Positions 7,865-63,613 of a DNA stretch of 64,000 nt are shown here, piece after piece; within the stretch, counting starts at the first letter, position 1, and each line of letters begins with the position of its first letter. The stretch is from Halobacteria archaeon HArc-gm2. GTDB lineage: Archaea > Halobacteriota > Halobacteria > Halobacteriales > Haloarculaceae. The notes under the pieces are model-generated. The model ran no database searches, had not been told where the DNA came from, and was given only the letters and a program-made list of their open reading frames with translations. The translations under genes were made by a program, and so were the position numbers. Location: contig JAOPKE010000009.1 of the NCBI GenBank assembly GCA_025517465.1, positions 1 to 64,000 of the forward strand. Reading direction: 5' to 3'.

Positions 7865-8520
7865 GAAAGCCCTCGGCGGGCTCCAGTCCCGGGGCTCGCT
7901 GCGCGCCTCACTCCGTTCGGTGCTTGCTTCGCCCGGGTTCCCGGACCCCGCCTCGCCCTTTCATTCTGCTCTGTAGGATCGCTTGAGTGGGTCTAAGGTG
8001 ACCGCGATCGACCTCCGAATGTTACCCAGCAGTTAGACGCCAGGAGCATTCACCCGTTTTCCACTCTGCTACGGGTGATCGGTGCATCATAGCTGGATAC
8101 TGTTGTTCGATCCCATCAATACTCGACCCCCGAGACCGGCCAACTAGCGATCCTACAGAGCATTTCATTCCTCCAGGTCAGCACCGAAGCCCTGCCCTCC
8201 CCCTGGTCGCGAGAGCCTCGCTTTCGCTCGGCTATTCGCTCCCGGCCCAGCGGTTGCTGAGCGGTGAGGATGCGTGATTCGCGCCGGACGGCGCGAATCC
8301 GGGGAGGTTTGGTGTCTTGCTGAACGGAGTGAGGCAAGGCTCGTCAGAGCAAAGCTCTGACGGTGGTTATAATCGCGAGCGCGTTTCATCGCGCGAGCGA
8401 GGCTGGACCTGGAGGAATGAAAGGGCGAGGCGAGGTCGCGTGGGCTGAGCGGGCCCTATCCGAGCGACGGAGGAGCGAGGATATCCCGCTCAGCGCGCGG
8501 CGAGCGCGCCGAGGGCTTTC
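7865..8520. repeat. structured intergenic element, copy 1 (interrupted by a MITE)
   Basis: Left arm 7865-7966 starts GAAAGCCCTCGGC and ends CCTCGCCCTTTCATTC. Right arm 8408-8520 starts CCTGGAGGAATGAAAGGGCG and ends GCCGAGGGCTTTC. Each arm folds on itself: in the right arm GCTGAGCGGG pairs with CCCGCTCAGC. The core (8171-8407) contains a hairpin GATTCGCGCC/GGCGCGAATC and the CCCTGCCCTCCCC motif, which places it in the same orientation as copies 3 and 5. A 196-bp MITE plus an 8-bp duplication splits the left arm end; without them the copy is 452 bp. It lies between convergent genes. Confidence 0.85.
7967..8162. mobile_element. 196-bp MITE with 17-bp inverted ends
   Basis: Perfect terminal inverted repeats TGCTCTGTAGGATCGCT (7967-7983) and its complement (8146-8162) enclose 162 bp with no coding frame. 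The flanks TTTCATTC at 7959-7966 and 8163-8170 are an 8-bp target-site duplication. Removing the element and one flank restores the conserved CCTTTCATTCCTCCAGG sequence seen in the other element copies. This is a non-autonomous DNA transposon; an 8-bp duplication fits an IS5-like (ISH1 type) or IS1595-like transposase, but none is encoded here. Confidence 0.92.
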
Positions 8521-8695: not shown

Positions 8696-8762
8696 TTACT
8701 CCAGCGCGTCCAGGCGGAACTCGAAGGCCGCAACCGGCAGTTCCAGGTCGTGCTCAACCACC
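8696..8762 (-). pseudogene. displaced copy of the pheT 3' end
   Basis: On the minus strand this encodes V-V-E-H-D-L-E-L-P-V-A-A-F-E-F-R-L-D-A-L-E-stop, the same C-terminus as pheT, whose own stop is at 8859, 163 bp away. The two stretches differ at about seven of 67 positions, so the duplication is old. No start or body of the gene accompanies it. The 8763-8858 spacer holds only short GC-rich repeats. It looks like the original gene end left behind after an integration that supplied a replacement 3' end. Confidence 0.8.
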
Positions 8763-8858
8763 TTTTTCCGCGTCGGGCGTCCTCGCTCACTGCGTTCGCT
8801 GCGGGCGCCGCTCGCGCAAAAACGTGGGCGAAAAAGACGCTCGCTTCGCTCGCGCGGA

Positions 8859-10595
8859 TTACTCTAACGCGTCCAGCCGGAACTCGAAGGCCGCCACCGG
8901 CAGTTCCAGGTCGTGTTCCACCAGCACCTTCGGGTGGACTTCGCCGATGACGCCCGCAGACTCGCCGTCAAGCACCACTTCTGCAGCGCGGCCAGAGATG
9001 AACGTCGGGTGGTCGGTCGGCGGCGTCTCCAGGTCTTTGCCGAAGGCCTTGGCGAGCGTCTGGAGGCGGGCCTTGGCGTCCTCGTAGGAGGCGTCCGTGC
9101 GCGCGAGTGCGCCCGCGACCGTGCGGTGTTCGGCGACGCCGGTGTTTTCGGACTCGTCGATCTCCGCGGCGAGGCCGATCTCGGCCAGATCCTGGGGGTA
9201 GGCCCGGTGGGTGTTGTTCTCCAGGACCATCAGGACCGACGGGAGCGCCCAGGTCCGGAGCATGGTGTAATCCTCGCTGTAGGGCTGCTCGATGGTGACC
9301 GGGTCGCCGGCGCCGAGGACGTCGGTGCCGGGTTCAACTTCCATCCGCTCGTAGTTCTCTTCCTCGTTGATCATGTGGAAGTTGAGCAGGTCCTCGAAGC
9401 CGAGGCCGACGAGGGCGTCCCGGGCGGCGTCCTCCAGCCGGGAGCGCTCGTGGCGCCCGCCGACCGTCGAGACGTCGGGGTACTCGGGTTCGAGCGTGTT
9501 GAAGCCGTAGGCCCGACCGATGTCGTCGATGACGTCTAGCGGGTGGAGCACGTCGACGCGGTACGGCGGGACGTCGAACTCGTAGGAGACGGCGCCGTCG
9601 TCGTCCTCGTCACCGCGGGCGTCCAGTCCCGCGCGTTCTGCGCAGTCGACCACTTCCTCGGGGTCCATCTCGACGCCGAGGATCTGTTCGATGCGCTCGT
9701 GGGTGACGGTCTTGGTCTTCGTGGCGAGGTCGGGGCGGACGAATTGCTGGCCCGAGTACTCACCGGGCGCGTCGGCCGAGTACTCGACGCGGACCTCCTC
9801 GACCTGCCCGCCGCGGGCGTCGAGCGCGTAGCAGACGATGTTGAGCATGTGGTCGATTGTCCACTGGTCCGTCCCGGTCATCTCGATGAACAGGTCGCGA
9901 GAGCCCGTCGAGACCTCGGTCCGGCGGCCGTTGACCACCGGCGGGAACGAGAACAGGCCGATGGCGTCGTAGATGGCCGGCACGCGGTCGAGATCACTCA
10001 CGAGGTCGGCGTACTCCTTGCCGATGTGGTGGCCCTCGACGACGTCGCCGGGCGTCATCTCCTGGTCGCCCTCTAGCGGGACGAACGTGTCGCCCTCGGG
10101 GTCGATGCCAGTGTAGCGAACGGACTTCCCGCCGCCCTCGACTCCGGCCTCGCCCTTGAGCATCGTCAGGTCGTGGACGCCGATGGCGCCCTTGGCGCGC
10201 TGGCGGCCCATCGTCGCGTGGAGCTTCTCCTGGAGCTGGATGATGGAGTCCAGCGCCTCGTCGTCCATGTCCAGCCCGCGGACGACGGCGGCCGTGACGT
10301 AGGGTCGCTCCGGCGGCGTGTCCTCGACTTCGACGACCCACTCGGCGTGGTTCGTCCCGGGCGTGTACACCCCGCGGTCGTCGCCGTACTGGTAGCGCAG
10401 CGAGCGGGCGACGCCCTCCACGGAGAGCCGGTCGAGTCTGTCGGGGGCGAATTCGAGCTGGAACTCGTCGTCCTCGGTCCAGCCCTCGAACTCCAGACCG
10501 AGATTGAACAGGTCCGAGCGGAGTTCGTCGTCGTCCTTCTCGTCGTGACCCGTCAAGCGGCGGAGCTCGTCGGGGTCGACGTCGACGACGGGCAT
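8859..10595 (-). CDS. pheT: phenylalanine--tRNA ligase beta subunit
   Basis: The 578-residue protein is the tRNA- and editing-side subunit of the PheST tetramer that charges tRNA-Phe. It begins MPVVDVDPDELRRLTG as in other archaeal PheT; the B1, B3/B4 editing and B5 domains follow (for example RPYVTAAVVRGLDMD near 107-121 and EVDP-type FPPVVNGRRTEV near 215), and the C-terminal catalytic-like fold ends VAAFEFRLDALE. The ATG at 10595 overlaps the pheS stop by one base, indicating translational coupling. A diverged copy of its last 22 codons lies 163 bp downstream. Confidence 0.96.
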   Translation of the reverse strand: MPVVDVDPDELRRLTGHDEKDDDELRSDLFNLGLEFEGWTEDDEFQLEFAPDRLDRLSVEGVARSLRYQYGDDRGVYTPGTNHAEWVVEVEDTPPERPYVTAAVVRGLDMDDEALDSIIQLQEKLHATMGRQRAKGAIGVHDLTMLKGEAGVEGGGKSVRYTGIDPEGDTFVPLEGDQEMTPGDVVEGHHIGKEYADLVSDLDRVPAIYDAIGLFSFPPVVNGRRTEVSTGSRDLFIEMTGTDQWTIDHMLNIVCYALDARGGQVEEVRVEYSADAPGEYSGQQFVRPDLATKTKTVTHERIEQILGVEMDPEEVVDCAERAGLDARGDEDDDGAVSYEFDVPPYRVDVLHPLDVIDDIGRAYGFNTLEPEYPDVSTVGGRHERSRLEDAARDALVGLGFEDLLNFHMINEEENYERMEVEPGTDVLGAGDPVTIEQPYSEDYTMLRTWALPSVLMVLENNTHRAYPQDLAEIGLAAEIDESENTGVAEHRTVAGALARTDASYEDAKARLQTLAKAFGKDLETPPTDHPTFISGRAAEVVLDGESAGVIGEVHPKVLVEHDLELPVAAFEFRLDALE

Positions 10596-12106
10596 CAGTA
10601 CACCACCTCCGTCTCGCGGAGGAGTTCGAGGTCCGCCAGCGTCCCGTGGACGTCGCGGATGTCCTCGAAGCCGTACATGAGCATGAGCAGGCGCTCCAGC
10701 GAGAGCCCCCACGCCATCACGTCGGCGTCGACGCCCAGCGGTTCGAGCACCTCGGGCCGGAAGATGCCGCTGTTCCCGACCTCGACGATCTCGCCCGTCT
10801 CGGGGTGGGTGCCGAACAGCTCGAAGCTCGGCTCCGTGTAGGGGTTGTAGTGGGGCTTGAACTCCAGGTCGGTGATGCCGAACTGCTCGTAGAACTCGGT
10901 GAAGGTGCCCATCAGGTCCCTAACTGAGAGATCCTCGGCCAGGACCCACCCCTCGATCTGGAAGAACTCGAGCAGGTGCGTCGGGTCGAGCGTGTCGTTG
11001 CGGTACACCTTCTCGACGCTGAAGAACCGCTGCGGTGGCTCCAGGTCGCCGACCTGGTGACCCGACAGATAGCGCATCGAGAGCGAGGTCGTGTGCCCCC
11101 GGAGGTCGATGCCGCGGGCGACGTCCTCGTCCCACGGCGAGTGGTAGCCCTCGCCGTCCGGGCCGACGCCCTCCAGGTGGGCCGACTTCACTCGCTCGAC
11201 CAGGTCCTCGGGCAGGTGGTCGATCTCTTCGGGGTTCGAGAGGGCGAACTGGTCCCAGTGGGTGCGTGCCGGGTGGTCCTGGGGCATGAACAGACAGTCG
11301 TTGATCCAGAACTGCGCGTCGGCGTGGGGGCCCTCCATCTCCTGGAAGCCCATCCCGACGAGGACGTCCTTGACCCGGTTGGCGGTCTGGCGGAGGATGT
11401 GTTCCTTCCCGCCCTGGAGCTGCTCGGCGTCGGCTTCGACGTTGTACTCGCCGAACTCGACGGCTTCCCACTCGCCGCTGGTCAGCAGCGCCGGCGTCAC
11501 CTCGCCGACGGTCTCGGCGACCTCGACGCCGGCCATCAGTTCGGTCACGCCGTCGTCGGTCAGCCTGACCGACCGGACGGTGGTCTCGGTGCGCTCGACG
11601 AGCCCGCGCCGCTCCAGCTGGTCGAGGGCGTCCGCGTCGGCGTCGTCCGGACGGCCGTCCGCGACGGCTTCCAGCGCGAACATCTCGGGGTCCTCGCCGG
11701 GCGTCGCGTCGGGATCGGCGGTTATCTCGCCGCTGTCGATCACGCCGTAGCCCTTGCGAGCGTAGTTCGACAGCGCGATGTCGACTGCGCCACCCTCCAG
11801 CCCGGAGGCGCCGATGGCCTCGCCCATCGAGACCGGCCCCTCGTCGGCGCCGGCGTCGACGGCCGCAGTGTAGAGGTCCTGCTCGGGAAGGCTCTCGTCG
11901 ACGTACCGGTCGCCCTCCTCGGTGAGTTCGACTGACTCGACCGTCTCCTCGGAGACGGTGAGGAGCCCTTGGTCTTCGAGTTCGAAGGCGGCCCGCGTGG
12001 CCGTCTCCGGTTTGAGGTCGGCCTCGGCGGCCACCTCGTCGATGCGCCTGTCCTCGTCCGCGTCGGCGGCCCGGAGGACCGCCGCCTGTGCCTGTGGTAA
12101 CTTCAT
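10595..12106 (-). CDS. pheS: phenylalanine--tRNA ligase alpha subunit
   Basis: The 503-residue catalytic subunit activates phenylalanine and transfers it to tRNA-Phe. Archaeal-type N-terminal winged-helix modules (about 1-220, starting MKLPQAQAAVLRAADADED) bind the tRNA. The class II core follows, with FWINDCLFMPQDHPARTHWD around 267-287, motif 2-like FFSVEKVYRNDTLDPTHLLEF-type sequence near 365-385, and motif 3 GLSLERLLMLMYGFEDIR near 467-484. pheT overlaps its stop codon by one base. Confidence 0.96.
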   Translation of the reverse strand: MKLPQAQAAVLRAADADEDRRIDEVAAEADLKPETATRAAFELEDQGLLTVSEETVESVELTEEGDRYVDESLPEQDLYTAAVDAGADEGPVSMGEAIGASGLEGGAVDIALSNYARKGYGVIDSGEITADPDATPGEDPEMFALEAVADGRPDDADADALDQLERRGLVERTETTVRSVRLTDDGVTELMAGVEVAETVGEVTPALLTSGEWEAVEFGEYNVEADAEQLQGGKEHILRQTANRVKDVLVGMGFQEMEGPHADAQFWINDCLFMPQDHPARTHWDQFALSNPEEIDHLPEDLVERVKSAHLEGVGPDGEGYHSPWDEDVARGIDLRGHTTSLSMRYLSGHQVGDLEPPQRFFSVEKVYRNDTLDPTHLLEFFQIEGWVLAEDLSVRDLMGTFTEFYEQFGITDLEFKPHYNPYTEPSFELFGTHPETGEIVEVGNSGIFRPEVLEPLGVDADVMAWGLSLERLLMLMYGFEDIRDVHGTLADLELLRETEVVY

Positions 12107-12409: not shown

Positions 12410-12491
12410 ATAGTGGTGGTTGTAAGCCCGTACCCGCGTTCGACGCCATCGGCCACGTCGAACGCCGGTGAAAAGTTACAACCACCACTAT
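12410..12491 (-). terminator. long two-step hairpin after the DUF5305 gene
   Basis: A perfect 16-bp inverted repeat (ATAGTGGTGGTTGTAA at 12410-12425, its complement at 12476-12491) encloses a second perfect 10-bp stem (12436-12445 with 12456-12465). The outer stem includes the first base of the stop triplet of the upstream gene on the minus strand, so the structure directly follows its coding end. It may terminate the surface-protein operon or protect its 3' end. No target duplication flanks it, so a transposon is less likely. Confidence 0.55.
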
Positions 12492-14191
12492 CAGTCGTCC
12501 GACGGCGAGGGACCGGCGAGGGCCTCGTCGTCAAGCCAGCCATCGGCGTCCGCGCCGTCGTTCTCGTGATAGATGGCCGGGTGGTCGTCGACGGCCAGAC
12601 TCGGAACCGGCACCGTCTCGAGGGTGCCGTCGGCCGCCGCTGTCGACTGGGCCGACGCGGTCCCATCGGCGGACTGTGCAGACGGCGAATCGTCAGGAGA
12701 CGGGTCCGGCGCGTCTGTGCCCGGCGCGTCTGTGCCCGGCGCGTCTGTGCCCGGCGACGGATCTACCGACGCAGCAGTCACCCGGTCTGCCGGTATCAGG
12801 TCCGTCGGAGGACTATCGCCGTTCTCGGCGGCTATCGGTTCCGCGGACACCCCGTCGTCCGGATCGGGGTTCGCCGGAGCACCGCTTTCGGGTTCGTCCG
12901 GGGTCGCTCCAGTCCCCGACGAGGGGGGCTCGGTTCCGTTCGCCGATGGGGCCGTCGTCTCACCGTTCTCGCGACCGTCCGTCGTCACCTCGGCGCTGGT
13001 GAGGCCGCCGGACGAGGGCGACTCGTCCGAATACGAGAGGGGGTCGAGATCAGTTGTGCCGACGCCGCCGATCTGGGAGTCCGTCGGCCGGTAGACGTAC
13101 GTGACGGCGTCGCCGAGGACGACGAACTCGCCCCGGTCCCGGTCCTCGACGACGCGCGCGTCGGTGTCGATGGCCACGTCGACGAGCCCTTCGAGCGAGT
13201 CGACCGGGACGAGCGGGTCCGCTCGCGCCGACGCTGGCACGCGTGCGTGCGTGATCCAGTCGTCGAACCGCTCCCGGGTGGCCGCGGCAGCCAGACGCTC
13301 CCGGTCTGCCCGGCTCACCGCGAGCGCGTCGCGGCGCCGGGCGACGGCGATGGCAGCGAGTCCACCGACGCCGGCCACGAACAGCAGCGGCGCGCCGACT
13401 TCCCGGATCGGTCCGTAGGAGCGCTGGACGGCGACCTGCTCGGTCGTCCCGTCGGAGTCGGTGAGCACGTCCGGGTCCGGCTCCTCGACGTGGTAGACGC
13501 CGACGCCGGGTTCGATGGGAAGGTGGTAGCTGCGAGTCTCCTCGACTGACTGACCGTTGCGGGTGCCCGACACCGTGACGCGCGAGGTGACGTTGACCTC
13601 CGTCTGGCCCGGGCTCGCACCCAGCTGGCGTTCGATCCGGCGGGCGCGCTCGGAGAGGGCGGAGACGTCGACCGAGAACGGGACGGTGACCCGGTCGCCC
13701 GGCGCGACCGAGTCGACCTGCTCGCGGTTCAGTGGCCGCTCGACGCGCCAGTGCTCGGTCGTACCGTCCCCGTCGAACGACGACACGGAGCGAATTACGG
13801 CCACCGTCTCGACGGTCACCGTCAGCGACCCGCCGTCGCTGGCCGCGTACTCGTAGGCGAACCGGCCGTCGAGCGTCGGCGCGACCCGCTGGAAGTACAC
13901 CGACCGGTTCCGGAGGGCGGCCCCGCGCTCGAAGGCGTCGGTGCCGTTGACGACGGTCGCCCGGTGGGAGAACTCGCCGGACGACTCCCAGTCCGACACT
14001 TCGCGGGTCTCCGTCGTCGTCCCGGGCGCGACGTGGGTCCCGTACGTGACGTAGCCCCCCAGGAGCGCGACGAGAACGAGCGCGGCCACCACGAGCGCGA
14101 GGTTGTCGTCGACGAGTATCCTGAGCTGCCGGAGTCGGCGCTCCGTGGCGTCCAGGCGCGGCGCCGTCGCATCGTCGTACGACCCCGTCAT
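12491..14191 (-). CDS. DUF5305 family membrane-anchored protein
   Basis: The 566-residue protein belongs to a haloarchaeal family typically coded beside S26B signal peptidases. A short cytoplasmic start is followed by a first membrane helix (about 31-50), an external beta-rich domain (about 55-265), a second helix (267-284) and a cytoplasmic region. The last 160 residues are Ser/Pro/Asp-rich and include PGTDA repeated three times, encoded by 15-bp tandem repeats near 12710-12760. Its ATG overlaps the signal peptidase stop by 4 bases. The role is unknown; assisting maturation or assembly of the DUF1102 proteins is an inference from the operon. Confidence 0.82.
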   Translation of the reverse strand: MTGSYDDATAPRLDATERRLRQLRILVDDNLALVVAALVLVALLGGYVTYGTHVAPGTTTETREVSDWESSGEFSHRATVVNGTDAFERGAALRNRSVYFQRVAPTLDGRFAYEYAASDGGSLTVTVETVAVIRSVSSFDGDGTTEHWRVERPLNREQVDSVAPGDRVTVPFSVDVSALSERARRIERQLGASPGQTEVNVTSRVTVSGTRNGQSVEETRSYHLPIEPGVGVYHVEEPDPDVLTDSDGTTEQVAVQRSYGPIREVGAPLLFVAGVGGLAAIAVARRRDALAVSRADRERLAAAATRERFDDWITHARVPASARADPLVPVDSLEGLVDVAIDTDARVVEDRDRGEFVVLGDAVTYVYRPTDSQIGGVGTTDLDPLSYSDESPSSGGLTSAEVTTDGRENGETTAPSANGTEPPSSGTGATPDEPESGAPANPDPDDGVSAEPIAAENGDSPPTDLIPADRVTAASVDPSPGTDAPGTDAPGTDAPDPSPDDSPSAQSADGTASAQSTAAADGTLETVPVPSLAVDDHPAIYHENDGADADGWLDDEALAGPSPSDD

Positions 14192-32684: not shown

Positions 32685-33162
32685 GAAAGCCCTCGGCGCG
32701 CTCCCTGGAGTCGATACCTGGGCCAACAACACGCCGAAAGCCCTCGGCGCGCTCGCCTCGCGCGGCTCGCTGCGCTCCTCGCTTCGCTCCGGTGCTTGCG
32801 TCGCCGTGCTTCGGCCAGCGCACCTCGCCCTTTCAGTCCACCAGGTCCCGTATCGCTCGCGCCACAGAGGCGCTCGCGATTGAACCGCCACCCCTCCCCG
32901 AACCCGCCGCGTCCGCGGCGGGTCACGCTTCCTTCCGCAACCGCCCGGCCGGGAGCGCGTTTCATCGCGCGACCAGGGGAAGGGCAGGGCTGCGGTGCGG
33001 TCCCTGGAGGAATGAAAGGGCGAGGTCCGGTCGACGAAGTCCGAACCCGTAAGCACGCGAGGAACGAGCGCGCGCAGCGGGTTCGCACGAGTCGAGCGGG
33101 TCGAGGGCTTTCCTTTGTTTGCGGTATCGTCAGTGTCTCCGAAGAGCGGGCCGAGGGCTTTC
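32685..33162. repeat. structured intergenic element, copy 2
   Basis: Outer and inner GAAAGCCCTCGGC motifs at 32685 and 32736 are matched by GAGGGCTTTC ends at 33112 and 33162. Right-arm stems are CGAACCCG/CGGGTTCG and CCG-TCGAC/GTCGA-CGG. The core includes CCCGCCGC-GTCC-GCGGCGGG and GCGCG-TTTCAT-CGCGC hairpins and GGGGAAGGGCAGGGCTGC, which shows that it lies in the opposite orientation to copies 1, 3 and 5. It is 478 bp long and fills the gap between the beta-helix gene and lipA. Confidence 0.87.
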
Positions 33163-33264: not shown

Positions 33265-34191
33265 ATGAGTCAGACGCGCAAGCCCGACTGGCTGAAGATG
33301 CGGCCGCCGTCGGGCGAGCGGTTCACGGAGATCAAGCAGTCGCTCCGTGACCGGGACCTCCACACGGTGTGCGAGGAGGCCAACTGCCCCAACATGGGCG
33401 AGTGCTGGAGCGGGCGCGACGGGCCGGGGACGGCCACGTTCATGCTGATGGGCGACCGGTGCTCGCGGGGGTGTAACTTCTGCGACGTCGAGACGGGCGG
33501 GATGGAGCCCCTCGATCCAGACGAACCCGAGAACGTCGCCGACGCCGTCGCCGACATCGGCCTGGACTACGTCGTCCTCACGTCGGTCGACCGGGACGAC
33601 CTGGCCGACCAGGGCGCGGGCCACTTCGCCGACACCATCCGGGCGATCAAGGAGCGCGACCCGTCAATCCTCGTCGAGTGTCTCGTCCCGGACTTCCAGG
33701 GCGAGGAGCGACTCGTCCGGGAGATTCTGGACGCCGAACCCGACGTGTTCGCACACAACGTCGAGACCGTCGAGCGCCTCCAGTGGCCGGTCCGGGACCG
33801 GCGGGCGGGCTACGAGCAGTCACTGTCGGTACTCCGGCAGGCCGAGCGGGAATCGGACGTCTTCACCAAGACCAGTCTGATGCTCGGCGTCGGCGAGTAC
33901 GCCCACGAGGTGTACCAGACCATGTCTGACCTCCGGGAGGTGGGCGTCGACGTAGTCACTTTCGGCCAGTACCTCCAGCCCTCGCGCTCGCACCTCGACG
34001 TGACCGAGTACGTCCACCCCGACGCCTTCGACACCTGGCAACGGGTGGCCGAGGAGGAGTTCGACTTCGCCTACTGCGCCTCTGGCCCGATGGTCCGGTC
34101 GTCGTACAAAGCTGGGGAACTGTTCGTGGAAGCGGTGGTGCGCGACGGTGAAGGTGTCGATCAGGCGCGCGAGCGTGCGCGAAGTGTATGA
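33265..34191 (+). CDS. lipA: lipoyl synthase
   Basis: This radical-SAM enzyme inserts two sulfurs into protein-bound octanoyl groups to make lipoate, needed by the E2 subunit coded at 40432. The auxiliary cluster uses C36, C41 and C47 (CEEANCPNMGEC); the SAM cluster uses C66, C70 and C73 (CSRGCNFC). The 308-residue length is normal. The last 14 codons (GEGVDQARERARSV) differ from those of a displaced second 3' end at 34988-35173, while the preceding 140 bases are identical. The ATG at 33265 matches the family N-terminus; the element end lies 102 bp upstream. Confidence 0.95.
   Translation: MSQTRKPDWLKMRPPSGERFTEIKQSLRDRDLHTVCEEANCPNMGECWSGRDGPGTATFMLMGDRCSRGCNFCDVETGGMEPLDPDEPENVADAVADIGLDYVVLTSVDRDDLADQGAGHFADTIRAIKERDPSILVECLVPDFQGEERLVREILDAEPDVFAHNVETVERLQWPVRDRRAGYEQSLSVLRQAERESDVFTKTSLMLGVGEYAHEVYQTMSDLREVGVDVVTFGQYLQPSRSHLDVTEYVHPDAFDTWQRVAEEEFDFAYCASGPMVRSSYKAGELFVEAVVRDGEGVDQARERARSV
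34009..34148 (+). repeat. 140-bp direct repeat, left copy (inside lipA)
   Basis: These 140 bases, starting TACGTCCACCCCGACGCC and ending GTGCGCGACGG, are identical to 34988-35127. They cover 46 codons of the lipA C-terminus and bound an 839-bp insert. Perfect identity, including synonymous positions, implies a recent event or gene conversion. Confidence 0.95.
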
Positions 34192-34334: not shown

Positions 34335-34919
34335 ATGCCCCTACACCCCCCCAAAAGCAACGCACCTGACGACGCGATCTGGTGGCGGTTCAAAAACCAG
34401 TCACGCGTCACTCACCTCTTGGTCGCTCTCGGGGGATTCGCCGTTTGGTTCGGCGTTTACGCGTACTGGCTGGACGGTGTCGCGGGAGATCTCCACTTCG
34501 CCGCCGCGGAAAGTCCAGCAGCGATCGTCGCCCGTCAAGAAGCGATTCGAGTCGCCTCCGTCGCCTGCTGGGTCTGGTTCAGCCTCGCCTTCATGGTCGG
34601 CAAAGGGGGCCCCTTCCTGAATACGATAATCTACCCAGTGTTGGCACTCGTATTCGGTCCGTTGGTGACTTCATTGGCGGTATCCGGAAGTGTACCGGAC
34701 ACTCTGTATTCGTCCACCAAGTCAGCGATACATCCGATATTCGTCGTCGACGCGATCTCGCTCCTCGTTCTCGGAATGTTTGTTTGCCTCGTCCTCGTCG
34801 GGGGCTTTCTCGTAGTCATCCACTTCGTCACTGGAACGGGAGAAGCGTGGGCAGAGAAGCACATGCCCGAGGCGTATCACGAGATCGAACTCGAAAATCC
34901 CGAGAAGTGGGAGGACTAG
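34335..34919 (+). CDS. membrane protein carried on the lipA-flanking insert
   Basis: The 194-residue product has four predicted membrane segments: VTHLLVALGGFAVWFGVYAY (about 25-44), SVACWVWFSLAFMVG (about 74-89), TIIYPVLALVFGPLVTSLAV (about 97-116) and ISLLVLGMFVCLVLVGGFLV (about 140-160), then a charged tail ending NPEKWED. I recognise no family. Base composition is visibly less GC-rich than neighbouring genes, and it is the only gene between the two 140-bp repeats, so it was probably acquired with the insert. Confidence 0.75.
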   Translation: MPLHPPKSNAPDDAIWWRFKNQSRVTHLLVALGGFAVWFGVYAYWLDGVAGDLHFAAAESPAAIVARQEAIRVASVACWVWFSLAFMVGKGGPFLNTIIYPVLALVFGPLVTSLAVSGSVPDTLYSSTKSAIHPIFVVDAISLLVLGMFVCLVLVGGFLVVIHFVTGTGEAWAEKHMPEAYHEIELENPEKWED

Positions 34920-34962: not shown

Positions 34963-34987
34963 GTTAGGAGCGCTGATCGGCGGCGAA

Positions 34988-35173
34988 TACGTCCACCCCG
35001 ACGCCTTCGACACCTGGCAACGGGTGGCCGAGGAGGAGTTCGACTTCGCCTACTGCGCCTCTGGCCCGATGGTCCGGTCGTCGTACAAAGCTGGGGAACT
35101 GTTCGTGGAAGCGGTGGTGCGCGACGGCGAGGACCCGGAAGTCGCTCGCGAGCGGGCGCGGACGGCCGACTGA
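34988..35173 (+). pseudogene. displaced lipA 3' end
   Basis: The frame encodes 61 codons beginning [20 protein letters not shown] and ending [15 protein letters not shown]-stop. It matches the lipA C-terminus, identical over the first 140 bases and diverged over the last 46. It lacks the rest of the gene and any start. The GC-rich tail with typical haloarchaeal codon choice suggests this was the original chromosomal lipA end, pushed aside when the insert brought a replacement. Confidence 0.88.
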
Positions 35174-39776: not shown

Positions 39777-40283
39777 GAAAGCCCTCGGCCAACTTTTCGG
39801 AGCTGCTGTCGATACCGCAAACAAGGGAAAGCCCTCGGTGCGCTCACCTCGCGCGGCTCGCTACGCTCCTCACTTCGCTCCGGTGCTTGCGTCGCCGTGC
39901 TTCGGCCAGCGCACCTCGCCCTTTCAATCCTCCAGGTCAGCACAGCCCCGCAACCCTGCCCTCCCCCTGGTCGCGCAGCCCTCACGTTCGTTCGGGCACG
40001 CGCTCCCGGCCAGACGGTTGCTGAGCGGTCAGGACGCGTGTCGCGCCGCCAGGCGCGACCGGGGAGGAGTGGTGGAGTCATCCGCGAGCGCGTGCCGGAG
40101 GCCGCGCGAGCAACGCGGTGCCTGGTGGACTGAAAGGGCGAGGCGTGGTCGACGAAGCACGGACCCGCAAGCACTGGAACGGAGTGAAGCGCGCAGCGTG
40201 GTCCGCGCGAGTCGAACGCGCCGAGGGCTTTCGGGATGTTGTTGGCCCAGGCATCGACTCCGGAGAGCGGGCCGAGGGCTTTC
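39777..40283. repeat. structured intergenic element, copy 3
   Basis: Outer and inner GAAAGCCCTCGG motifs start at 39777 and 39827, and GAGGGCTTTC ends lie at 40232 and 40283. The arms contain AAGCAC-tip-GCGCAGC and the stem CGGACC/GGTCCG. The core has a TCGCGCC-GCCA-GGCGCGA hairpin and lies in the same orientation as copies 1 and 5. It is 507 bp long and separates pdhB from pdhC, which are normally tightly linked. Confidence 0.87.
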
Positions 40284-53329: not shown

Positions 53330-53821
53330 GAAAGCCCTCGGCCCGCTGAACTCGCGCGGACCACACTGCGCTCCTCGTTGCACTGCGGTGCTTGTGGGTC
53401 CGTGCTTCGTTCACCGAGCCTCGCCCTTTCATCCACCAGGACCAGCCTTGCTCGCGCACGGAGGCGCTCGCGATTAACTCCGCCAACCCTCCCCGGATTC
53501 GCGGCGTCCGCCGCGAATCACGCATCCTGGCCGCTCGGCAACCGCCCGGCGGTCGGCCGGGAGCGCGTTTCATCGCGCGACCAGGGGAAGGGCAGGGCTG
53601 ACGGCGGTCGGCCGGGAGCGCGTTTCATCGCGCGACCAGGGGAAGGGCAGGGCTGCTGTGCCTGGAGGAATGAAAGGGCGAGGCGGGCTCCGGGAACCCG
53701 GGCGCAGTAAGCACCGCAACGGAGTGAGGAGCGCAGCAAGCCCCGGGACCGGAGCGCGCCGAGGGCTTTCTGGGTGTTTGCCGTATCGTCGTCGGCTCTC
53801 GATAGCGGGCCAGGGACTTTC
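53330..53821. repeat. structured intergenic element, copy 4
   Basis: The left arm starts at 53330 (GAAAGCCCTCGG), the right inner end is at 53770 and a worn outer end (GGGACTTTC) at 53821. Stems TGAAC/GTTCA, CGGACCACA/TGTGGGTCCG and GCTCCGG/CCGGAGC are seen in the arms, and GATTCGCGGCG-TC-CGCCGCGAATC in the core. Orientation matches copy 2. A 55-bp part of the core is tandemly duplicated (53547-53601 and 53602-53656, one difference). It lies between the sulfatase and FGE genes. Confidence 0.87.
53547..53656. repeat. 55-bp tandem duplication inside element copy 4
   Basis: Two adjacent units starting CGGCGGTCGGCCGGGAGCGC and containing GCGCG-TTTCAT-CGCGC and GGGGAAGGGCAGGGCT differ only at the last base (A or C). 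Each unit carries one complete small hairpin, so the duplication is recent and adds a module without breaking the arms. Confidence 0.93.
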
Positions 53822-63187: not shown

Positions 63188-63613
63188 GAAAGCCCTCGGC
63201 GGGGTCGGGTCGCGGGGACCACCCTGCGCTCCTCGCTGCGCTGTCGTTCGAAAGACGCTGCGCGTCTTTCGTGATGACGAGAGAGCTTCGCTCTCTCGAA
63301 CCACGGTGCTTGGGGGTCCCGGCTTCCCCGACCCCGCCTCGCCCTTTCAGTCCACCAGGACAACACAGCAGCCCTGCGCTCCCGGCCGACCGCCGCGCGG
63401 TTGCGGATCGGTCAGGAAGCGTGATTCGCGGCGGACGCCGCGAATTCGGGGAGGGGTGGCGGAGTCGATCGCAAGCGCCCCTGTGGCGCGAGCGATGCAG
63501 TTCCTGGAGGAATGAAAGGGCGAGGCAGGCTGAACGAAGCACGGACCCGCAAGCACCGAATGGAGTGAGGCGCGCAGCGTGGTCCGCGCGAGTTCAGCCT
63601 GCCGAGGGCTTTC
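63188..63613. repeat. structured intergenic element, copy 5
   Basis: The arms start GAAAGCCCTCGGC at 63188 and end GCCGAGGGCTTTC at 63613. The left arm has the longest perfect stem (GGCGGGGTCGGG/CCCGACCCCGCC) and the right arm GCAGGCTGAAC/GTTCAGCCTGC, different sequences in the same place. The left-arm tip is enlarged by two hairpins, GAAAGACGC-TGC-GCGTCTTTC (63250-63270) and GAGAGAGC-TTC-GCTCTCTC. The core hairpin is GATTCGCGGCG/CGCCGCGAAT. Orientation matches copies 1 and 3; length is 426 bp. The rest of 63052-63786 shows no gene. Confidence 0.87.

Follow-up and report, generated by a model that had tools for sequence, protein, structure and literature searches.

The window that we analysed, a 64,000-nt stretch of Halobacteria archaeon HArc-gm2 DNA, lies on contig C18 of a genome (G000) of 4.25 Mb in 18 contigs. 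It contains pheT, with pheS upstream of it, and past the pheT stop lie a short structured element and a second copy of the end of the gene. The features of the locus are as follows.

8859-10598, minus strand: full-length pheT, phenylalanyl-tRNA synthetase beta chain (Pfam tRNA_synthFbeta and B5; relatives in 29/30 genomes)
8859-8923, minus strand: 3' end of pheT, first (functional) copy of the repeated tail, from the repeat alignment
8836-8858, minus strand: spacer past the pheT stop, with the GC-rich palindrome H2, GCGCGAGCGAAGCGAGCG, from reading of the sequence
8756-8835, minus strand: structured element, TTTTTCGCCCACGTTTTT - hairpin H3 - AAAAAGGTGG, covariance-model match with E 4.2e-15 (E-values are rough)
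8818-8835, minus strand: 18-mer core of the element
8757-8767, minus strand: right end of the element, AAAAAGGTGGT
8696-8757, minus strand: second copy of the pheT tail, EHDLELPVAAFEFRLDALE stop, directly past GGTGG

The direct repeat (8696-8760 and 8859-8923) is 65 nt long and 59 of its 65 positions are identical (91%). As the preliminary description of this DNA had stated, the two copies start 163 nt apart and share strand and frame. The strand is minus, each copy closes with an in-frame TAA, and the differences between them number 6, not about 7 as given there. The copy proper consists of the last 19 codons and the stop (8696-8755) and sets in 2 nt past GGTGG, and all four of the changes among its 19 aligned codons are synonymous. 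A 17-nt piece of the repeat, searched with up to 2 mismatches, occurred at these two sites only, with 0.04 matches expected by chance. The 98 nt that separate the tails read, on the pheT strand, H2, TTTTTCGCCCACGTTTTT, hairpin H3 and AAAAAGGTGG; they are non-coding and hold one copy of the element. Folded as a single RNA, the pheT element of the window did no better than shuffled sequences (z -0.5).

When the pheT ends of relatives were lined up, the element followed by the genome's own pheT tail was also found in G005 and in G007, the latter from another genus, while pheT of G004 has the element without a tail copy and that of the close relative G006 has neither. Nine of 80 further haloarchaeal pheT loci, among them those of Haloarcula salina, Haloarcula rara, Haladaptatus sp., Halosimplex salinum and Halorhabdus salina, carry the element and a copy of their own tail, the join lying at one of two points within the tail. 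The pheT copies were nearest to their own gene, and not to another copy, in 6 of the 7 genomes compared, with one tie.

Other repeats were noticed in the window. At 12412-12495, upstream of pheS, an inverted repeat (ATAGTGGTGGTTGTAA / TTACAACCACCACTAT) is possibly another small repeat element, and at 7967-8162 there is a MITE-like insertion with 17-nt perfect terminal inverted repeats (TGCTCTGTAGGATCGCT) and an 8-bp target duplication (TTTCATTC). Inverted GGAATGAAAGGGCGAG arms, separated by about 190-480 nt, occur as five pairs that make up a second repeat family (7952-8429, 32824-33024, 39915-40142, 53420-53682 and 63338-63524; 0.03 chance matches expected).

A hairpin element widespread in the Halobacteriales

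The same module was found at the same position beside many genes, with a core that is exact across genera. In each of ten close relatives the 18-mer, allowing at most one mismatch, was present at 5-26 places, and a backward-read control had none. With a covariance model (threshold E≤1e-4, E-values being rough), at least one copy was detected in 127 of 146 Halobacteriales genomes and in 48 of 56 genera, with up to 33 copies per genome; one genome was sampled per species, related loci are not independent of each other, and the first set of copies had been discovered by pattern. An alignment of 47 copies revealed a near-invariant core, GAGYGGT...ACCCGA and AAAAAGGTGG, and an apical stem that covaries. 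Among 103 matches from the wider genomes this stem showed 54 double changes, compared with 18 in shuffles. Of terminal inverted repeats, we saw only an imperfect CCCACGTTTTT/AAAAAGGTGG pairing at the base of the hairpin. Across the short loci the inserts measure about 70-130 nt. Variant elements with an extra hairpin, within the core or between two T5 tracts, were seen at L039, L073, L268 and L298.

None of the Rfam covariance models matched the element at E≤1, and the literature accessible to us held no description of a hairpin combined with a duplicated gene tail; most subscription papers lie outside that literature and the novelty is provisional. The element, present in most Halobacteriales genomes examined and associated with core genes whose 3' ends are duplicated, is apparently undescribed.

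The 3' end of the upstream gene is repeated 0-12 nt past GGTGG in 81 of about 208 element copies. The tail copies derive from the upstream gene, stand on the right side of the element and have repeat lengths from 24 to more than 200 nt. L133 was the only clear case of a repeat that resembles a gene start instead of a gene tail. For Halomicrobium and close relatives, 54 of 119 copies had such a direct repeat, in a set where the 99th percentile of mispaired controls lay near the cut-off; the onset was at most 9 nt from GGTGG with few exceptions, and 4 nt was commonest. An independent set of 96 copies at 85 loci from other genera and families gave a tail copy in 33/96 at a score of at least 20. 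At the same score, the controls gave 0/96 when the downstream stretch was displaced by 400 nt and 4/299 for mispaired flanks. Gene families hit in at least two genera account for 46 of the 81 cases, and the families named include ileS-like, nuoI, argF, TIGR00300 ornithine cyclodeaminase, sufS, gyrA-like and pheT; HMG-CoA synthase and hisE tail copies recur inside one genus only. The name of the gyrA-like gene, like that of any gene lacking a family match, is our reading of the sequence. The arrangement, widespread in haloarchaea and with pheT as one instance, is gene - stop - (H2) - T5CGCCCACGT5 - H3 - A5GGTGG - (about 4 nt) - copy of the gene's own tail.

The preliminary description had proposed a scan for tail fragments within 2 kb downstream of their genes. 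We performed it on 864 kb (569 genes), a fifth of the own genome, and five genes had a tail repeat in that range, compared with 0-2 matches in controls made from gene starts, gene middles and reversed tails. The element is present in all 3 close repeats (pheT and two others), and the remaining two genes are lipA and cofG. The integrating class that had been suspected at the 3' ends of housekeeping genes was borne out as an inserted class with a common core motif, but no integrase goes with it, the pheT insert being 98 nt of non-coding DNA.

The element also occurs on its own. In 76 of the 127 copies without a tail copy, the right end lies at most 25 nt (most commonly about 4) from the stop of a convergent gene, and there was no duplication on either side of these 76 copies. 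The right end, CCACCTTTTT, stands behind the convergent stops mostly at 0-10 nt, and the left end is TTTTTC. At L046, L059, L062, L122, L143, L147 and L152 the right end (reversed CCACCTTTTT) follows the 3' end of tRNA genes at a distance of a few nt. Because convergent stops and reversed tRNA 3' ends adjoin the right end, the place of the element is between gene ends, and its T5C tracts face the genes on both strands. Judged from this sequence pattern, the hairpin module looks like a putative bidirectional transcription terminator. In Haloferax volcanii, T5C is a proven terminator with 95% termination (PMC7237163). The element resembles these archaeal T-tract terminators in having T5C right behind genes, here on both strands, but its conserved 18-mer, hairpin and A5GGTGG end far exceed a T-tract. 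It also resembles the REP/BIME intergenic palindromes (e.g. PMC3733652), which are dispersed, extragenic and proposed terminators. REPs differ from it in being 20-40 nt long. We know of no coupling of REPs to gene-tail copies.

Filled and empty sites, and the evolution of the tails

Comparisons of related genomes gave sites with and without the insertion. At L108, the gyrA-like gene of G002 is followed by the element and a 74-nt copy, and in G001 and G003 a single tail leads into the same downstream DNA. L097 is filled in G003 (156-nt duplication) and empty in G001 and G002, and L085 is filled in G001 (79-nt duplication) and empty in G002. At all three loci the downstream DNA of the empty site lines up with the second copy; the newcomer is therefore the element plus one tail-length of DNA. 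L051 is filled in G002, where the first copy changes over to an allele like that of G001, and G001 and G003, which have no element there, have different gene ends. At the tail-copy loci the gene stays open, having its own stop ahead of the insert, as would be the case if the resident gene, joined by homology, runs in frame into the newcomer tail. Tandem arrays of [element + tail] were found at L072, L098, L198, L221, L357, L363, L374 and L395.

The second 3'-end duplication claimed for the window, in lipA, proved real: 147 nt are repeated with 99% identity (34005-34151 / 34984-35130). Its features are as follows.

34005-34191, plus strand: lipA 3' end, first copy, with the 147-nt repeat and then the tail ...GEGVDQARERARSV stop
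34335-34919, plus strand: 194-aa membrane-protein-like ORF between the lipA tails
34984-35173, plus strand: lipA 3' end, displaced copy, with the same 147 nt and then a different tail and stop

G006 has one lipA tail, collinear with the second copy of the window, and G004 also has a displaced tail just past its lipA stop. The 194-aa ORF, read by eye, gave no sign of an integrase. At L433 (G000:C12, about 205082, minus strand), in a gene whose name, cofG, is our reading of the sequence, a diverged tail is found 785 nt downstream, beyond an intervening reverse-strand gene; the DNA after the displaced tail resembles a second version of a cofG-like gene (a displaced module). The hairpin element is absent from the lipA loci of G000 and G004 and from the cofG locus, so tail displacement also occurs without the element. 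The preliminary description took the pheT repeat for an older case of the lipA type. It is not simply that, since lipA has no element, contains the 194-aa ORF and has two different tails past the repeat; the logic common to both is displacement of the resident tail.

Divergence also cannot serve to date the repeats, since gene conversion takes place between gene and copy. G000 and G006 share an orthologous insertion with elements that are 99% identical; here the copy agrees at four synonymous sites with the gene of the genome in which it lies, and one junction base remains copy-specific. Gene tail and copy thus evolve in concert, by gene conversion. In the 64 loci with the stop of both copies in register, the changed codons were 141 synonymous and 83 nonsynonymous (random point changes would give 25% synonymous), and the second copies had one internal stop in 1156 codons. 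The copies were therefore recently coding or converted and did not decay neutrally. Allelic replacement is visible as a second process at ileS (L344, L350), lipA and L051. The tail pairs of ileS and lipA consist of coding versions that have diverged, and at L350 the first 59 nt of the tails are identical despite the divergence. We rejected a general reading of the copies as identical in their 5' and diverged in their 3' parts, for the mismatches fell to either side at 19 and 19 loci.

Proposed origin of the second tails

The explanation that we consider best for the observed module, tail copy, recurrence, exact empty sites and concerted evolution, with a probability of roughly 0.5, is a one-sided, homology-facilitated insertion of a gene tail plus module that displaces the resident tail. 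The incoming DNA would consist of the gene tail and the module with its fixed right end, GGTGG(TNGC), possibly from the same or a related species. It would enter by a single homologous crossover within the tail of the resident gene, and the right end of the module would be joined illegitimately, at a point between a few tens and about 200 nt before the resident stop. Joined inside the resident tail in this way, it would push that tail downstream. The similarity would afterwards be maintained by gene conversion between the two tails and by exchange of alleles with relatives. The fixed right end, 4 nt past the base of the hairpin, may reflect cleavage there, which is a conjecture. At L108, L097, L085 and lipA, the displaced resident sequence is collinear with the empty site, and this side of the insert is joined without homology.

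The same one-sided logic has been proposed for T6SS and Rhs arrays (PMC5361080). One homologous and one illegitimate end, and a resident 3' end displaced downstream, are what the element loci share with homology-facilitated illegitimate recombination, as in those arrays (PMC5361080) and in E. coli conjugation (PMC3240628). In the Rhs/T6SS arrays the cargo is new effector and immunity genes, whereas here it is usually a conserved hairpin of about 70-130 nt with a fixed right end, beside housekeeping genes in most Halobacteriales. We would therefore say, by analogy, that the insertion works like this recombination, not that it is the same.

Several observations do not fit a one-sided insertion well. 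The constant right boundary is left unexplained, and ordinary one-sided recombination should also trap random donor DNA. No donor molecule was identified, GGTGG-like sequence was not enriched as microhomology in the gene before the join, and the mismatches are not biased to one side of the repeat. The copies at L096, L100, L208, L241 and L085 are identical or nearly so over 44-79 nt, like plain target duplications.

These last copies lead to the strongest competitor, a non-autonomous mobile element that makes long, variable target-site duplications (about 40-230 nt) with a variable 5' and a fixed 3' end, perhaps by staggered cuts or in a retro-type manner. We judge it possible but rather unlikely. 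Insertion and duplication are exact in the filled and empty pairs L108, L097 and L085, many copies are identical, and a fixed right (3') end with a variable left (5') end would suit retro-type insertion. Retro-transposition (TPRT) was nevertheless rejected, since an RVT_1 search found no reverse transcriptase in any of 30 genomes, G000 included, with positive controls. Nor did the genomes hold a near-identical source copy; none exceeded about 96% identity except orthologous loci and tandem units. The 76 copies adjoining convergent genes without duplication, and the diverged coding alleles at ileS, lipA and cofG, also speak against a mobile element. In diversity-generating retroelements, too, the 3' end of a gene is accompanied by a similar repeat and a hairpin downstream, but here there are no reverse transcriptase and no adenine-directed substitutions. 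The loci do not match a MITE or other classical transposon derivative in that the short, fixed target duplication of 2-10 bp is missing. The MITEs, PATEs and SMRs of Haloquadratum are also short, non-coding, dispersed and palindromic haloarchaeal elements (PMC3119063), but their target duplications are short or absent, and neither a fixed post-stop site nor duplicated gene tails are described for any of them (PMC3119063).

Tandem duplication, in which a gene that already had the module copied its own tail by unequal recombination or by template switching at the hairpin and the second module was then lost, appears less probable still. It is consistent with the tandem arrays (e.g. L357 and L395) and with a partial second module after the second copy at L039, L083 and L043. 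Most loci, on the other hand, have no second module. At the empty sites the module is missing and the sequence lines up exactly with the second copy; therefore, the module itself arrived.

It is very improbable that an integrase-bearing element of the genomic-island type at gene 3' ends has decayed to att sites. Gene tails flanking an insert are the classic att picture and lipA does carry an ORF, but the short loci have no integrase gene in their short inserts, the core motif is a hairpin and not repeated gene sequence, and the repeat length varies too widely. Campbell integration of a circle of tail and element was also tried; it fails for diverged tails such as those of L350 and is possible at single loci. 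Chance similarity or local slippage, which the preliminary description had named as a way for its idea to fail and which has nothing beyond GC-rich sequence in its favour, is refuted by the repeat alignment, the 17-mer expectation, the flank controls and the excess of tail fragments over the scan controls.

Returning to the displacement of resident tails, we tentatively suggest, as an idea that is more doubtful than the insertion itself, an enzyme-free mobile or recombination module of a kind new to prokaryotes: a hairpin whose right end is defined might take along the tail of a housekeeping gene, settle behind the same gene in other cells, displace the old tail and retain it, through gene conversion, as a homology arm, and so spread gene by gene across an archaeal order.

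Both the displacement and the mobile-element readings are testable in Haloferax. If the loci are due to a mobile element, its target duplications would exceed those of the archaeal elements known to us. If the displacement model is true, the loci would preserve, in readable form, how lineages have recombined one-sidedly at housekeeping genes, would explain orphan tail fragments that annotation pipelines overlook, and would mean that gene conversion acts on tracts of about 60-100 nt.
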